A stretch of DNA of 64,000 nt from contig NZ_DF976995.1 in assembly GCF_001485475.2 (NCBI RefSeq), forward strand, positions 1 through 64,000. The letters run 5' to 3'. This stretch comes from Tepidanaerobacter syntrophicus (GTDB lineage Bacteria; Bacillota; Thermosediminibacteria; Thermosediminibacterales; Tepidanaerobacteraceae). The translations under genes and the position numbers were made by a program. Of the stretch, positions 5,788 to 19,823 are shown piece by piece (within the stretch, counting starts at the first letter, position 1; each line of letters opens with the position of its first letter). Below the pieces are notes generated by a model, which saw only the letters and a list, made by a program, of their open reading frames with translations, made no database searches and was not told the origin of the DNA.

Positions 5788-6975
5788 TTGGAAATAACCC
5801 ATGAATATGCCCAGAGCATAGTTGAAAAAACTAAAGATCTACTTGGTAAAAATATAAATATTATGAACAGTTTGGGCATAATTGTGGGAAGTGGAGATAA
5901 ATCCCGAATAGATACCTACCATGAAGGCGCGGCAGAAGTTATAAAAACAGGGAAAAGTATGGAAATAACGTCTGAGCAAGCTGAAAAACTGGAAGGTGTA
6001 AAACCGGGCGTTAACCTTCCGGTTTACCTTAATGATAGAATCGTAGGAGTTGTTGGAATTACCGGGGAACCTGATGAAGTAAGGCCGTTTGGACAACTGC
6101 TAAAAATTTCAGTTGAAACAATGCTAAATCAAATATTTTTATCAGAACAGCTTCGTATGGAACAAAACGCAAAGGAACTTTACGTAAACGACATCATAAA
6201 CGGCAACATTCAAGACATAAATGCGTTTTTGACTAAAGGACAAGTTTTCGGTTTTGACATGACTATTTATCGGATCGCACTTGCAGTAAAGATAAAAGAA
6301 AGCATTAATACAGGACACAAAAAGTTGGCATCTCAAGAAATACAAGAAAAAATACTTGCTTGCATAAAAAACGTTTTTAACAATCCCCAGCATATGGTAA
6401 GCCACAATGGCAGCAATAATTATATCGTCCTTTATGCGACTGATGAAACAGACCCTGAATTTATAAAGGAAGAGCTTAGTAAAACCGCAGAAATTTTAAA
6501 ACGCAACCTTAGCAAATATTCGGCCACGTTTTCTATTGGAGTGGGCTCGTACTATCCGGGCCTTTCCGGAATACGTAAATCATATAAAGAGGCGGTGAAA
6601 GCACTTCAATTACAAGAAAAAATTTTAAAAGGTTCTCAAACGCTCCCGGAACTCATTTTTGCATCAGATATTGCCCTTGAAATGATGCTTTCAGCTGTGC
6701 CCGAAGAAATTATAGATACATATATTGACCAGGTAGTTTCTAAAGGCGAGGCTAAGACTTTTTTAAAAGATACGAAGTTGACTACGACTTTAAAAACCTA
6801 TTTTTCATCTAATTTAAATATCTCTAAAACAGCTAAAACCCTCAATGTTACACGAAATACGGTAAGCTCAAGACTTGAAAAAATAAAAGAGCTTACCGGT
6901 CTTGACCCGTCTGATTTCAATGACGCTTTAAAGCTGGATGTCTTGCTTAGAGCGGTTTATATAAAAGAAATATAG
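5788..6975 (+). CDS. CdaR-type sugar diacid regulator
   Basis: The 395-residue protein has an N-terminal sugar-diacid recognition domain (about 1-130), a middle region and a C-terminal PucR/CdaR helix-turn-helix (about 335-390, NISKTAKTLNVTRNTVSSRL). Proteins of this build, such as E. coli CdaR, activate glucarate, galactarate and glycerate genes. The start is TTG at 5788 because GGGAGGG lies 7 bases upstream and no better start exists. It sits directly after the glycerate kinase and reductase genes and probably controls them. The inducer may be glycerate or a sugar diacid. Confidence 0.88.
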   Translation: MEITHEYAQSIVEKTKDLLGKNINIMNSLGIIVGSGDKSRIDTYHEGAAEVIKTGKSMEITSEQAEKLEGVKPGVNLPVYLNDRIVGVVGITGEPDEVRPFGQLLKISVETMLNQIFLSEQLRMEQNAKELYVNDIINGNIQDINAFLTKGQVFGFDMTIYRIALAVKIKESINTGHKKLASQEIQEKILACIKNVFNNPQHMVSHNGSNNYIVLYATDETDPEFIKEELSKTAEILKRNLSKYSATFSIGVGSYYPGLSGIRKSYKEAVKALQLQEKILKGSQTLPELIFASDIALEMMLSAVPEEIIDTYIDQVVSKGEAKTFLKDTKLTTTLKTYFSSNLNISKTAKTLNVTRNTVSSRLEKIKELTGLDPSDFNDALKLDVLLRAVYIKEI

Positions 6976-12595: not shown

Positions 12596-13372
12596 ATGAT
12601 CCTTGCAATTGACGTAGGAAATACAAACCTGGTTTTTGGAATTTATCACAGCGGCAGTCTTTTGGTATCATACAGGATGGCTACACATCATGATTATACA
12701 GAAGATGAATACAGTCTTGTTTTTACTTCACTGCTGCATTTAAAAGATTTGGATCGCAACAGCATTGAGGGAGGAATCATTTCATCTGTTGTTCCGTCAC
12801 TGACTGTTGTCTTGGAAAAAATGTGCAAAAAGTATTTTGAATTTGCACCCATAATAGTTGGCCCGGGAATTAGAAGCGGTATAAATATAAAATATGAAAA
12901 CCCGAAAGAAGTAGGAGCCGACCGCATTGTCAATGCAGTAGCCGCTCTTTATAAATATGGCGGACCGGCTATAATTATAGATTTTGGCACTGCAACTACT
13001 TTTGATGCCTTGACAGCGGAAGGGGATTATCTTGGGGGCGCTATAGCTCCCGGAATAGGTATATCTTCTGAGGCGCTTTTTAAAAGCGCTGCGAAATTGT
13101 ATAGGGTAGAAATAGCAAAACCCGAAAGAGTAATCGGAAAAAACACGGCATCCAGCATACAATCAGGAATATACAACGGATATGTGGGCCTAGTTGAAAA
13201 TATTGTAGACAGGATGAAAGAAGAAATGGGCGGTGGTTCGATATGCACTATTGCCACAGGCGGCCTAGCCCCCTTGATATGCAGCAATGCAAGAAATATT
13301 GACAGAGTTGACATGATGCTTACCCTTGATGGATTAAACTTACTTTATGAAAAAAATACTGTTAAAAGTTAA
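12596..13372 (+). CDS. coaX: Type III pantothenate kinase
   Basis: CoaX phosphorylates pantothenate as the first step of coenzyme A synthesis. The 258-residue protein shows the ASKHA-fold motifs in order: IDVGNTNLVFGIY at the N-terminus, GADRIVNAVAA at about 107, and IIIDFGTATTFDAL with its essential Asp at about 127. Length and motifs fit type III kinases, which are insensitive to CoA feedback. The gene is tightly linked to the S-component gene and closes with a strong terminator. Confidence 0.95.
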   Translation: MILAIDVGNTNLVFGIYHSGSLLVSYRMATHHDYTEDEYSLVFTSLLHLKDLDRNSIEGGIISSVVPSLTVVLEKMCKKYFEFAPIIVGPGIRSGINIKYENPKEVGADRIVNAVAALYKYGGPAIIIDFGTATTFDALTAEGDYLGGAIAPGIGISSEALFKSAAKLYRVEIAKPERVIGKNTASSIQSGIYNGYVGLVENIVDRMKEEMGGGSICTIATGGLAPLICSNARNIDRVDMMLTLDGLNLLYEKNTVKS

Positions 13373-13503: not shown

Positions 13504-14478
13504 TTGCAGAAAGGTTATTTTGATGTACCGCTTTATTTAGCGCCTATGGCAGGCGTTACTGATTTGCCCTTTAGACTTATATGCAAAAAATTAGGTGCGG
13601 ATGTTCTGATAACCGAGATGATTAGCACTCGGGGGATTGTTTATAATGATTTAAAAACAAAAAAACTATTTATAATAGACGAAGAAGAAAAGCCAATAGG
13701 GGTTCAGCTTTTTGGAAACAATCCGGAAGATTTTAAAATAGCAGTTAAAAAAATTGATCATATGTCTTTTGACTTTATAAATATAAATATGGGGTGTCCG
13801 ACTCCAAAAATAGTTAAAAACGGTGATGGATGCGCCTTGATGAGAGATATTAAACTTGCGTCAAGCATAATAAAATCAACTGCCGAAGCCTCCACAAAAC
13901 CTGTATCCGTTAAGATTAGAAAAGGATGGGACGAGGAGAGCGTAAATGCAGTTGAGTTTTCACAAATGGCGCAAGAAAGTGGTGCATCGATGATTATAGT
14001 TCATGGCAGAACAAGGGAAATGTTTTACTCAGGTAAGGCAGATTGGGATATAATAAAAAAAGTAAAGGACAAAGTGAGTATACCTGTCATAGGAAACGGA
14101 GATATATTTACTGCTGAAGATGCACTTTCCATGCTCTCTAAAACCGGTTGTGACGGAATAATGGTAGGGCGCGGCGCTTTAGGGAATCCATGGATTTTTA
14201 GAGATATCAAGCACTTTCTTGCAACAGGAGAAAAGCTTTCCCCTCCCACCTTAGACGAAAGGCTTCAGATAATGATGCTGCATTTAGACAAAGCCATATC
14301 ATATCATGGCCTGAGACTTGGCATACTTGAAATGCGCAAACATCTGGCTTGGTATATAAAGGGTTTGCCTCATTCCGCTCCCATTAAAAATACTCTGCAA
14401 AAATGCAAAGATGTTACATCTATTAAAGAAATACTAAATAACTATTTTGCAAAATTAGCTCAACAAGGCTATCAATAA
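13504..14478 (+). CDS. dusB: tRNA-dihydrouridine synthase
   Basis: This flavoenzyme reduces uridines in the tRNA D-loop using FMN and NADPH. In the 324-residue protein the family motifs appear in order: [21 protein letters not shown] with the catalytic Cys, [20 protein letters not shown] and [11 protein letters not shown], then GRGALGNPW. The TTG start is supported by GGAGG at 13490-13494. It seems to be a single-gene unit between two terminators, and the DusB assignment within the Dus family is the usual one for Firmicutes. Confidence 0.93.
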
Positions 14479-14492
14479 AGGTATTTGCTGGT

Positions 14493-14534
14493 AAATCAAG
14501 AGAAAGCCAAAATTATTTTCTCTTGATTTTTTTT
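14493..14534 (+). terminator. Terminator after dusB
   Basis: AAATCAAGAGAAA (14493-14505) pairs with TTTCTCTTGATTT (14517-14529), followed by more T. Confidence 0.85.
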
Positions 14535-14540
14535 GTGAGT

Positions 14541-14575
14541 TGATATAAAATGATGTGAGCACAAAAGTGTGCACA
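14541..14575 (+). promoter_or_regulatory. Extended -10 promoter with overlapping imperfect palindrome
   Basis: TGATATAAA (14541-14549) is an extended -10 element. Directly downstream, TGTGAGCAC (14554-14562) and GTGTGCACA (14567-14575) form an imperfect palindrome (7 of 9 pairs) over the expected transcription start. That is the position of a repressor site. The first gene of the unit encodes an HTH protein, so autoregulation is plausible. Confidence 0.45.
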
Positions 14576-14588
14576 AGGAGGTGCCGCT

Positions 14589-15119
14589 GTGGATTTTATA
14601 AGGATTGGCGGTAAGCTTATTAGCATATCCCGAATAGAAAATACCATTCAAGAAATGCTGATTTTGCGACAGCAAGGAGTTTCTCAAGCGGATGTAGCTA
14701 AAAAGTTTAACACTGACAGGACCTTCTTATCTCGCTTGGAGAGCTTAGGAGAAATAAGAAAGGGGAAAACCATAGCAATAGTTGGATTTCCAATAAAAAA
14801 CACAGAAGAACTTAAACAAATGGCAGCTCAGGAAGGCGTAGACTTTACATTGATTATGAATGATAAAGAACGCTGGGATTTTGTGTATGAAAAAAGCGGA
14901 ATAGAGCTGCTAAATGAAGTTATGGGAATCATCTACCAGGTAAGACAATATGATGTAGTTATTTTATTCGGCTCAGATCAAAGGCTTCGACTTTTTAAAG
15001 CACTTTTAGACAAAGAAGTCATACCTGTAAATATCGGTAAATCACCTATAACAGAAGATGTTTATGTAGATCCTGAAAACCTAAAGGAAATTATAAAAAC
15101 CATAAAGAAGGAAGATTAA
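14589..15119 (+). CDS. Helix-turn-helix protein of the AAR-like gene unit
   Basis: The 176-residue protein has a clear helix-turn-helix near residues 20-50 (GVSQADVAKKFNTDRTFLSR). A C-terminal alpha/beta domain starts at about 60 (GKTIAIVGFPIKNTEELK) and I cannot assign it to a named family. The start is GTG at 14589 with AAGGAGGTG upstream. It ends one base before the next gene, so the three genes 14589-17135 are probably co-transcribed. It most likely regulates this unit, with the C-terminal domain sensing a ligand. Function beyond DNA binding is unknown. Confidence 0.75.
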   Translation: MDFIRIGGKLISISRIENTIQEMLILRQQGVSQADVAKKFNTDRTFLSRLESLGEIRKGKTIAIVGFPIKNTEELKQMAAQEGVDFTLIMNDKERWDFVYEKSGIELLNEVMGIIYQVRQYDVVILFGSDQRLRLFKALLDKEVIPVNIGKSPITEDVYVDPENLKEIIKTIKKED

Positions 15120-15120
15120 A

Positions 15121-16029
15121 ATGAAGCATGTTATGAGCGTGAGCATAGGTTCTTCCAAAAGAGATCATAAAGTGGAGACAGAAATTTTAGGAGAAAAATT
15201 CATAATAGAGCGTGTGGGAACTGACGGAAGCATAGAAAAAGCCATTGAAATCATAAAAGAAAACGATGGCAAAGTAAGCGCCTTCGGCATGGGTGGAATA
15301 GACCTTTATGTTTGCATCGGCAATAAGCGATTTACAATAAGAGACGCAGTGCCGATTGCTCAAGCGGCTAAAATATCTCCTATCGTGGACGGCTCGGGTT
15401 TAAAAAATACTCTTGAGCGCCGAGTAGTGAACTACCTTGCCGAAAACAAAATCGTGGATTTTGAAGGTAAGAAAGTACTCTTAGTCTGCGGCCTAGATAG
15501 GTTTGGCATGGCAGAGGCTTTAGATAAAACCGGGTGCAAACTGACATTTGGAGACCTTATTTTTACAGTAGGAGTGCCTATTCCGGTAAGATCCCTTAAA
15601 AGCTTGAATATTTTAGCGAGCATCTTAGCCCCTATTATATGCAAGCTTCCATTTAACATGCTGTATCCTACAGGAGAAAAACAAGAGAAAAAGGCCGGTT
15701 CCTCAAAATATGAGCGTTTTTATAATGAGGCAGATATTATTGCCGGTGACTTTCATTTTATAAAGCGCTATATGCCTGATAGGCTTGATGGCAAAATTAT
15801 ATTAACAAATACCGTAACATCGGACGATGTAAAGATGCTGACTCAAAGCGGTGTAAAAATGCTGATTACAACAACACCTGAACTAAATGGCAGATCTTTT
15901 GGGACAAATGTCATGGAAGCTGTTCTTGTGTCTCTTTCTGACAAACCTTATAAATCCTTAACTCCAGCAGACTATGAAGAACTTTTAGACAAAATCGGGC
16001 TTACCCCAAGAGTAGAGGTTTTAAACTAG
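15121..16029 (+). CDS. Uncharacterised protein paired with the AAR-like reductase
   Basis: The 302-residue cytosolic protein has no signal peptide. Visible segments are AFGMGGIDLYVCIG (54-67), a Rossmann-like stretch VLLVCGLDRFGMAEAL (119-134), GDLIFTVGVPIPVRSL, and a late NELNGR-like turn (TTPELNGRSFGTN). I recall relatives being labelled dehydrogenase-like, but no convincing nucleotide-binding glycine motif or catalytic residues support this. It lies between an HTH protein and an AAR-like reductase with tight spacing, so it probably acts in the same process, perhaps in substrate handling. Specific function is unknown. Confidence 0.7.
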   Translation: MKHVMSVSIGSSKRDHKVETEILGEKFIIERVGTDGSIEKAIEIIKENDGKVSAFGMGGIDLYVCIGNKRFTIRDAVPIAQAAKISPIVDGSGLKNTLERRVVNYLAENKIVDFEGKKVLLVCGLDRFGMAEALDKTGCKLTFGDLIFTVGVPIPVRSLKSLNILASILAPIICKLPFNMLYPTGEKQEKKAGSSKYERFYNEADIIAGDFHFIKRYMPDRLDGKIILTNTVTSDDVKMLTQSGVKMLITTTPELNGRSFGTNVMEAVLVSLSDKPYKSLTPADYEELLDKIGLTPRVEVLN

Positions 16030-16052
16030 AAAATAATTAAAGAGGTGCGATC

Positions 16053-17135
16053 ATGGAAAAATTTGCCTTTATAATACATCCTATCGAAGTATCTGATGTA
16101 TTTAGAAAATTGAAGTTCATGGAAAAACTGCCGCCAAACATGGTGGAGGCTATAATGAAATACGTGCCGCCTTTTACAATTTCTCACATTACGGGAGTAA
16201 AAAGCCCATACAATGAAGCCGAGGGCTGGTTTGTTACATGTCCACTGACAACACGACAAATGATTGAACTTCCGGAAGACTTTGTAATTAAAAAAATTAT
16301 AAAGGCAGGGAAACTGGCGGAGAAACTAGGAGCTAAAATAGTCGGCCTTGGCGCCTTTACATCAGTAGTGGGAGATGCCGGAATTACTATTGCCAAAAAC
16401 TTAAACATACCTGTTACCACGGGCAATAGCTATACCGTTGCTACTGCCATAGAAGGCACAAAAAAAGCTGCTGAAATTATGGGTAAAGACATAAAAGAAG
16501 CTCAGGTGTTGGTTATTGGAGCTGCCGGGTCTATCGGAAAGGTATGTGCTCAAATTCTTGCAAGAGACTGCAAACATCTGACGCTTGTTGGAAGGCATAC
16601 AGAAAAACTTCAGGATGTAGCTGATAAAATACTAAAAGATACAGGGAATTCTGTGAAAATAACATCAGATACAAGAAGCGCCGTAAGAAATGCAGATGTT
16701 ATTGTGACGGTTACCAGCAGTCTTGATACGATAATTGAAGCAGAGGATTTAAAGCCCGGTGCGGTAGTATGCGATGTATCCCGGCCAAGGGATGTTTCAA
16801 AGGAAGTTGCCGAAAAACGCGATGATGTCCTTATAATAGAGGGTGGCGTAGTAGAAGTTCCCGGCGACGTAAATTTCAATTTTAATTTTGGTTTTCCACC
16901 AAAAACTTCTTACGCCTGTATGGCTGAAACTATGATGCTGGCGTTAGAGGGCCGCTATGAGAGCTTTTCCTTGGGTAGAGATCTGACGGTAGAACAGGTA
17001 GAAGAGATAACAAGGATAGCCAACAAGCATGGATTTAAATTAGCCGGCTTTAGGAGTTTCGAACGGGAAGTAACGCAGGAGCAGATTGAAAACATTAAAA
17101 GGAACGCGAAGAAAAAACAAGAGCAGGCAAGCTGA
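16053..17135 (+). CDS. Acyl-ACP reductase-like (AAR-like) aldehyde-forming dehydrogenase homologue
   Basis: The 360-residue protein matches the layout of cyanobacterial long-chain acyl-ACP reductase along its length. Segments are FAFIIHP at the N-terminus, ISHITGVKSPY (44-53), GLGAFTSVVGDAG (98-110), VTTGNSYTVATA (121-132) and the Rossmann loop GAAGSIG (156-162). Later come EGGVVEVPGD and YACMAETMM, whose Cys289 aligns with the reported active-site Cys of AAR, then FSLGRDLTVEQVEEI and KHGFKLAGF. AAR reduces acyl-ACP or acyl-CoA to fatty aldehyde with NADPH. No decarbonylase lies nearby, so the product fate is open. The family match is from memory of AAR sequences; the actual substrate is inference. 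Confidence 0.75.
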   Translation: MEKFAFIIHPIEVSDVFRKLKFMEKLPPNMVEAIMKYVPPFTISHITGVKSPYNEAEGWFVTCPLTTRQMIELPEDFVIKKIIKAGKLAEKLGAKIVGLGAFTSVVGDAGITIAKNLNIPVTTGNSYTVATAIEGTKKAAEIMGKDIKEAQVLVIGAAGSIGKVCAQILARDCKHLTLVGRHTEKLQDVADKILKDTGNSVKITSDTRSAVRNADVIVTVTSSLDTIIEAEDLKPGAVVCDVSRPRDVSKEVAEKRDDVLIIEGGVVEVPGDVNFNFNFGFPPKTSYACMAETMMLALEGRYESFSLGRDLTVEQVEEITRIANKHGFKLAGFRSFEREVTQEQIENIKRNAKKKQEQAS

Positions 17136-17139
17136 AACC

Positions 17140-17178
17140 ATAACCTCACCTGAAGTAACCGGGTGAGGTTATAATTTT
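17140..17178 (+). terminator. Hairpin terminator after the AAR-like gene unit
   Basis: ATAACCTCACC (17140-17150) pairs with GGTGAGGTTAT (17162-17172), followed by AATTTTAG. The T-tract is short, so termination strength is uncertain. Confidence 0.65.
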
Positions 17179-18449: not shown

Positions 18450-19823
18450 ATGAGCGTTTTGTCAGGCTATTTAATGCCGCATCCCCCGATTATGGTAGAG
18501 GAAGTCGGTGGAAAAGAGGCCCAAAAAGTAATTTCTTCTATAAACGCTGCCAATACAGTAGGTAGGGAAATAGCAAAACTCTCTCCTGATACTATAGTTA
18601 TAATATCCCCTCATGGTCCTATTTTTGCAGATGCCTTATGTATCTATGATTTTAATTTAAAAGGCAGTCTTGCATCCTTTGGCGCTCCTGAGGTAAAGAT
18701 GAGTTTTGAACGCGACGCAGAGCTTGCAGATGAAGTGCGCGAAAGGGCGAACAGGCATGGCATTTCAACTGTTACAACCAGTGAAGTTGGGGTTTGGAAA
18801 TACGGCTTCAAAGAGGAGCTGGATCATGGTGTAATTGTGCCTATGTATTTTATTGCCAAATATTCTTCGAATTTTAAATTAATGCCTTTATCTTTCGGTA
18901 TGCTTCCATATGAGGACCTTTACGAATTTGGAAAACTGATACAAGAATCTGCAAAAGCGCTAAATAAAAAAATAGTAGTAATAGCAAGCGGAGATCTTTC
19001 TCACAGGCTTACAAAAGATGCACCTGCAGGTTATGACCCATACGGAAAAGTGTTTGAAGACCAATTGGTAGATGCATTGAGAAAATTTGATTTAAAAGCT
19101 CTTCGATCTATTGACCCGGTGGTTATCGAAAGAGCCGGAGAATGCGGCTTAAGATCAATTTGGATTATGGCAGGCACTCTTGACGGCTGCAAAGTGGAGC
19201 CTGAAGTGCTTTCACATGAAGGGCCTTTTGGCGTAGGTTACTGTATAGCAAGATTTAAGGTTGCCGAACAAAAAGAAGATTCAAGCGAAACGCCTGAAAA
19301 AGAAACAGAAGATCCTTATGTAAAACTTGCTCGCTACACCCTTGAAACCTATGTGAAAGAGGGCGTTATACCGCCGCTACCCGAAGATTTACCCGAAGAG
19401 ATGCTCAAACAAAGGGCTGGGGTGTTTGTGTCGATAAAGAAGGGCGGACAACTTAGAGGGTGTATAGGAACATTTTTACCCACCCGCAAGAACATCGCAG
19501 AAGAGATTCAAAGAAATGCTATAAGTGCAGGGTGCGAGGATCCACGATTTTACCCGGTAGAAAAGGATGAACTTCCTGAACTTGAATATTCCGTAGATGT
19601 TCTTACAGAGCCTGTGCCGGTGTACAGTATTGACGAACTTGATCCTAAGAAGTACGGTATTTTAGTAAGAAAAGGCTATAAATCCGGTCTGCTGTTGCCT
19701 GATTTAGAAGGTGTGGATACAGTAGAGCAGCAGCTTAGAATAGCCCTTGCGAAAGCCGGGATAAGACTTGATGAGGACTATCAGATATATAAATTTGAAG
19801 TGGAAAGGCATGAAGAAAAATAA
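18450..19823 (+). CDS. AmmeMemoRadiSam protein: LigB/MEMO-like plus AMMECR1 fusion
   Basis: The 457-residue two-domain protein has, at residues 1-275, a class III extradiol-dioxygenase/MEMO-like domain with potential metal ligands His11 (MPHPPI), His55 (SPHGP), His126 (ELDHG) and His185 (GDLSH). Residues 285-455 form an AMMECR1 domain with the hallmark [11 protein letters not shown]. Related genomes link these domains to a radical SAM enzyme (here at 22163); the joint function is not established. GGAGGG precedes the ATG. The two domains are often separate genes, so the fusion is informative about partnership. Confidence 0.88.

Follow-up and report, generated by a model that had tools for sequence, protein, structure and literature searches.

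The g1-g2-g3 unit of Tepidanaerobacter syntrophicus would, on balance, form a split PigE/TamH-type system in which an acyl-thioester is converted to an aldehyde and then to a primary amine under the control of a dedicated repressor. The unit lies within a window of 64,000 nucleotides (contig NZ_DF976995.1, positions 1 to 64,000), which is the whole stretch of DNA analysed. An amine route is favoured because the thioester reductase (TR) co-occurs with a PigE-type class III aminotransferase (TA), is fused to one in other genomes (TA-TR fusions), and has a gene that can adjoin that of the aminotransferase. The reductase-aminotransferase pair, known from a few pigment pathways, is here a conserved chromosomal module in many anaerobe genomes, and the clostridial unit probably serves an amine-making pathway that was previously known only from bacterial pigment clusters. 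Clostridia would accordingly make an aldehyde or amine that is yet to be described, and the finding provides a functional hypothesis for two families that had none, those of g1 and g2.

The three genes are co-directional on the + strand and separated by gaps of 1 and 23 bases. The first, g1 (14589-15119), has a GTG start and codes for a 176 aa HTH protein; the second, g2 (15121-16029), codes for a 302 aa core protein; and the third, g3 (16053-17135), codes for a 360 aa protein assigned from its sequence to the acyl-thioester reductases of the AAR/PigE-TR superfamily. Upstream are coaX (12596-13372) and dusB (13504-14478), the latter followed on the + strand by a terminator-like hairpin with a run of eight T (about 14493-14529), a palindrome that is probably the dusB terminator and that was judged by eye; its loop is too long for the terminator scan. 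A second terminator-like hairpin (17140-17172, + strand) with a 13-pair stem and a T-rich tail ends the unit, which thus has an HTH gene, a putative operator and a terminator of its own, in agreement with the separate regulation proposed in an earlier, sequence-only reading of this DNA. An MFS gene follows g3 in the window in place of greA and lysS, and further to the right a single open reading frame (18450-19823) fuses LigB/MEMO-like and AMMECR1 domains (AmmeMemoRadiSam system proteins B and A).

The order coaX-dusB-[g1-g2-g3]-greA-lysS is repeated across Clostridia, with variant versions in Halanaerobiales, Aquicultor and Armatimonadota. The same reading had proposed a three-gene unit, and a survey finds the g1-g2-g3 order in many genomes of several phyla, which is far beyond chance; the unit is an old, syntenic, vertically inherited chromosomal locus widespread in Clostridia. 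The g2 gene is present in 224 of 299 genomes sampled from the phylum. A search of open-access articles found nothing on the g1-g2-g3 unit.

The motifs of g3 that had been noted from the sequence (GLGAFTSVVGDAG, VTTGNSYTVATA, GAAGSIG at residues 156-162, and YACMAE with Cys289) are exact, and they and the open reading frames all lie where they had been placed. GAAGSIG forms the dinucleotide-binding loop (16518..16538, + strand), and the codon of Cys289, the proposed thioester nucleophile, is at 16917..16919 (+ strand). In the phmmer alignment the CMAE segment falls on the catalytic CFAE segment of AAR, so that Cys289 does align with the AAR nucleophile. The best PDB chain for g3 is PigE (4ppm; residues 3-350, E 2e-36), and Synechococcus AAR (6jzq) is matched over residues 35-329 (E 4e-24). 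The best NCBIfam model is likewise PigE (NF053554; 237.7 bits over profile positions 1-362, the reductase half), followed by AAR (TIGR04058; 123.5-123.9 bits, below its cut-off of 449.7, with Synechococcus elongatus among the positive controls of that search). Pfam yields just the generic Shikimate_DH NAD domain (PF01488, 60.8 bits) and its kin. Assignment as AroE was rejected, with TIGR00507 giving 25.5 bits against a cut-off of 200.2 and the NAD domain PF01488 being the sole match, as was assignment as a glutamyl-tRNA reductase (TIGR01035; 53.6 bits against 209.55, in the NAD domain only). The AAR superfamily and the nucleophilic Cys are borne out, but the nearest known relative is the TR domain of PigE (237.7 versus 123.9 bits); judged by these profiles, g3 ranks among the thioester reductases of the AAR superfamily and lies closer to PigE-TR than to the cyanobacterial enzyme. 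That g3 produces an aldehyde from an acyl thioester is very probable, given its family and the conservation of both the Cys and the nucleotide loop.

A PigE-type class III aminotransferase is encoded in the same genome (G000) at a site distant from the unit (G000:C5:431216-432640, - strand; L279 7217-8641). It scores highest against the aminotransferase half of PigE (502.4 bits versus 433 for putrescine aminotransferase), its best PDB match is 4ppm, nearly tied with the putrescine aminotransferase 4uox, and it is 47% identical to the TA domain of the fusions. No copy of the operator described below was found at this locus.

Stand-alone g3 occurs in 153 of the 299 genomes, all 153 of which carry g2, and TA-TR fusions occur in 41, for the most part genomes in which g3 lacks the Cys, has decayed or has been lost. 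Of the genomes with g2, 8 of the 38 that carry a fusion also have g3, versus 145 of the 186 that do not (Fisher p 5e-11). A close TA, for which a stand-alone aminotransferase had to match the fusion TA domain at E below 1e-78, occurs in 118 of the 145 non-fusion g3 genomes versus none of 41 g2-only genomes (p 2e-23); the presence/absence lists behind these counts were transcribed by hand, and shared ancestry within this sample of the phylum inflates the p-values. At the family level TA is present in 53 of 62 g3 families versus 0 of 13 g2-only families (p 4e-9), a collapse that reduces but does not remove the effect of shared ancestry on co-occurrence. In one locus (L280) TA and a Cys-bearing g3 adjoin, 37 bases apart and with TA first, as in the fusions. 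The Cys is retained in all 33 fusions sampled. Fusion and stand-alone reductases form two separate, fully supported groups, and fusion is thus not a recent local event. Fusions of Pseudomonas gingeri, other Pseudomonas and the Chromobacterium group (L110, L111, L117, L118) sit inside a fusion clade that is otherwise mostly from Bacillota and Chloroflexota, and may have a bearing on the origin of the pigment-cluster enzymes.

No close TA is present in the remaining 27 of these 145 genomes, in which the aldehyde must have some other sink. The 27 include both other Tepidanaerobacter genomes sampled (G201 and G298), which have g3 proteins about 90% identical to that of G000 and lack the close TA found in it; even among members of this genus the step after the reductase may vary. 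The need for another sink in these genomes, and the membership of g3 in the AAR superfamily, are the points in favour of an AAR-like reductase with a fatty aldehyde passing to ether lipid or plasmalogen, to fatty alcohol or back to the acid, which we nonetheless consider unlikely. Two candidates for the downstream enzyme were rejected: a decarbonylase (the aldehyde-deformylating oxygenase PF11266, for which the S. elongatus control is positive) is absent from the genome, confirming that the partner of g3 is not a decarbonylase, and aldehyde:ferredoxin oxidoreductase (AOR) is also absent. AOR moreover does not track g3, since families that have g2 alone, among them f51, f64 and f86, carry it; the genes that do track it are the aminotransferase and g2, and there is no recurrent lipid-gene neighbour, the neighbours being coaX, dusB, greA and lysS. 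The ether-lipid (plasmalogen) and acyl-recycling roles suggested from the sequence find no support, the co-occurrence, fusion and adjacency all indicating a PigE-type aminotransferase instead.

Similarly improbable is a small non-fatty acyl or aminoacyl thioester as the substrate of g3, much as glutamyl-tRNA reductase acts on a tRNA ester, with TA completing a cofactor or polyamine pathway. The score of TA with putrescine aminotransferase (433 bits) is also high, the glutamyl-tRNA reductase and glutamate-1-semialdehyde aminomutase pair (GluTR-GSAM) is an analogous combination of reductase and aminotransferase (PMC8341465), and the location next to coaX and other housekeeping genes is suggestive of core metabolism. 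On the other side, the likeness of g3 to GluTR is limited to the Rossmann part (53.6 of 209.6 bits), and the closest kin of g3 act on medium-chain acyl thioesters.

The slot between g2 and greA gives a further view of the reductase. Among 146 sampled loci it is filled by a g3 homologue in 113 and by a smaller protein, of uncertain descent or decayed, in 12; the remainder have nothing recognisable there. The Cys is kept in 98 of the 113 unique homologues, all 98 of which have GxxGxxG intact, and of the 15 without the Cys only 6 keep the Gly loop. Joint retention of Cys289 and GxxGxxG is what selection for a Cys/NAD(P)H reductase should produce, and the fact that the two are kept or lost together argues, at the level of sequence, that the g3 of the window is an active reductase and that the activity was abandoned in some lineages. 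These 15 Cys-less homologues, the more decayed proteins of ~300 aa remaining between g2 and greA (with significant similarity for L123 and L132), and the finding that stand-alone g3 never occurs without g2 could also indicate that g2 and g3 make up one hetero-oligomeric enzyme or sensor, with a mainly structural part for g3 and a reductase activity that is ancestral and dispensable. This is the least probable of the alternatives, given the strict conservation of Cys and GxxGxxG in 98 homologues including that of the window. In several families (f14, f18, f56, f71 and f97), moreover, the losses coincide with acquisition of a TA-TR fusion that bears the Cys, which implies that the activity matters.

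Several slot proteins (e.g. L123 2888-3805, L132 5157-6050, and those of L143-L149) are g3 relatives in which the Cys is replaced by W, S, A, G, E or D, often with loss of the Gly loop as well, and form a natural series of dead enzymes with which the part played by g2 can be told from that of g3. Profile comparison by hhalign supports kinship with g3 for the L123 and L132 proteins (P 98 and 94) and, in part, for those of L135/L136 (P 41). Another family of ~300 aa lies exactly in the slot (L120 6908-7816, L126 6953-7987, L128 5073-5981, L130 6908-7798, L137 5076-5981, L139 and L140) and has a secondary-structure pattern that resembles g3 by eye; the L120 group has no significant similarity to g3 by hhalign (P 0.9) and is placed here by position alone; these proteins may descend from a reductase that has decayed to an extreme degree, or may have replaced it. 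The L122 protein at 6730 was rejected as a g3 relative, because it is not directly after g2 and scores below threshold.

The g2 protein has no match by sequence in Pfam, NCBIfam or the PDB, and is strongly conserved, with a mean column identity of 62% over 25 aligned sequences from Bacillota, Armatimonadota/Abditibacteriota and Actinomycetota. It had been described as an unrecognised 302-residue protein, which remains correct for its sequence family but not for its fold: a single AF2 prediction (pLDDT 87.9) has AAR as its best PDB match by Foldseek (6jzq, E 6.8e-6), and re-alignment with VIA gives Z 13.5 with an rmsd of 4.4 over 245 residues. The top eight full-length VIA rows are AAR (Z 13.5-12.8) and carmabin TAD (12.2-12.0), with glutamate dehydrogenases next at about 10. 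An AAR-like fold is thus predicted for g2 from this one model, and the predicted sharing of a fold by g2 and g3 is new relative to the first reading. The relation is structural only, since profile comparison by hhalign finds no sequence homology between the two (probability 0.2%). No Cys is invariant among the 25 aligned sequences; the Gly-loop position of g2 reads xxDRFGMA without GxxGxxG, and the helix expected to carry the Cys reads GRSFGTNVME. The invariant motifs DRxGMA and GxxFxTNxxE occupy the Gly-loop and Cys places, the equivalence of which is deduced from secondary structure.

The g2 protein is rather likely to act in partnership with the reductase, as opposed to being unrelated to it and only co-transcribed. 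In 41 genomes, including families f23, f51, f64 and f86, g2 is present without any TR, which points to a function beyond serving g3. Sporulation was considered as an explanation of g2 and rejected, because Spo0A_C is found in 256 of 299 genomes, many of which lack g2, and the genome analysed here gives no match to it. Other Tepidanaerobacter have the Spo0A C-terminal domain that was not found in the G000 assembly, that of G201 with an internal stop.

The g1 protein has a weak HTH_3 match in Pfam, and its AF2 model, also a single prediction (pLDDT 88), has a Rossmann-like C-terminal domain. Fold comparison of this domain with the PDB by Foldseek and VIA gives no confident match; Rex chains are among the weak Foldseek matches (E 0.015-0.08), and the best VIA Z of 7.6 is to generic Rossmann folds. 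A putative operator, TGAGCACA-AAAG-TGTGCACA (full site TGAGCACAAAAGTGTGCACA), precedes g1 at 14556..14575 (+ strand), and both the palindrome and the leading position of the HTH gene are as first described. It is the sole such site in the window at up to 3 mismatches (0.12 expected). The consensus palindrome TGTGCACA-N(3-4)-TGTGCACA is found before g1 in 144 of 157 loci with 13-16 of 16 positions, and none of 157 shuffled upstream regions reaches 13 (maximum 12 of 16). The best promoter-like site before g1 is TTGATT-17-TAAAAT at 14523..14551 (+ strand), from a consensus scan with an overall count not above that of shuffles; the palindrome lies between this -10-like box upstream and the g1 ribosome-binding site downstream, a placement that is the predicted position of a repressor. 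The g1 family precedes both g2-g3 and TA-TR fusions, with the same operator in front in both settings. In 31 related genomes there is mostly one operator-like site each, and second sites are not consistently placed. A wider g1 regulon was rejected, the few second sites (2 mismatches) lying within or next to genes that are unrelated and vary from one species to another. We consider it likely that g1 represses the unit by local autoregulation, and the uniform operator makes the g1 regulator and its switch directly testable.

Under the favoured split PigE/TamH-type system, g1, with its HTH and Rossmann-like sensor domain, would bind the palindrome at 14556-14575 and repress its own operon until a ligand is sensed. 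An acyl group from acyl-carrier protein or CoA would then be transferred onto Cys289 of g3 and reduced with NAD(P)H to the aldehyde. The constant partner g2 could be a non-reductase subunit, an acyl/ACP-binding or channelling factor, or a separate enzyme. Most probably the aldehyde would pass to the distant PigE-type PLP class III aminotransferase and yield the primary amine. More speculatively, g2 may be the founder of a strongly conserved AAR-fold family with a new active site, partnering (and maybe channelling for) a TR-aminotransferase route to alkyl amines, with that route being an ancient clostridial core pathway from which, or alongside which, PigE/TamH evolved, and which makes an as yet unseen cellular amine or amino-lipid.

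Four known systems can be compared with the unit. Carmabin TAD (9e4x/9e50) is a distant match to g3 (E 9e-10) and the second-best structural match to g2 (Z 12.2), but is a domain of an amino-acid-adenylation (NRPS-type) protein and is only about 10% identical to g2. In the glutamyl-tRNA reductase and glutamate-1-semialdehyde aminomutase pair a thioester-forming reductase similarly hands an aldehyde to a PLP enzyme, although the similarity of the g3 NAD(P) domain is weak, and the genome encodes a separate Shikimate_DH-domain protein (L001) that matches better than g3 does. Cyanobacterial AAR (TIGR04058, PDB 6JZQ/6JZY), which uses NADPH to reduce long-chain acyl-ACP and works together with aldehyde-deformylating oxygenase (ADO), shares with g3 the fold family, GxxGxxG, a Cys on the Cys294 segment and a similar length, but g3 falls below the TIGR04058 cut-off, there is no ADO in the genome, and the partner is g2 instead. 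The closest likeness is to PigE (prodigiosin, MAP biosynthesis) and TamH (tambjamine), which are fusions of TR with a class III aminotransferase and for which experiments support reduction of the thioester to an aldehyde that is then transaminated (PMC8341465, PMC9594044). The TR domain of PigE is nearest to g3 and its aminotransferase domain nearest to the genomic TA, the Cys and Gly loop are conserved, and fused TA-TR versions occur in other Clostridia. The system of this genome differs in that g3 and TA are separate genes at distant loci, with scores (237.7 and 502.4 bits) under the 850 bits above which full-length PigE is called; it is vertically inherited in a housekeeping region without a pigment cluster, and it also has g2, a partner with a predicted AAR fold, and a regulator of its own with a putative operator.
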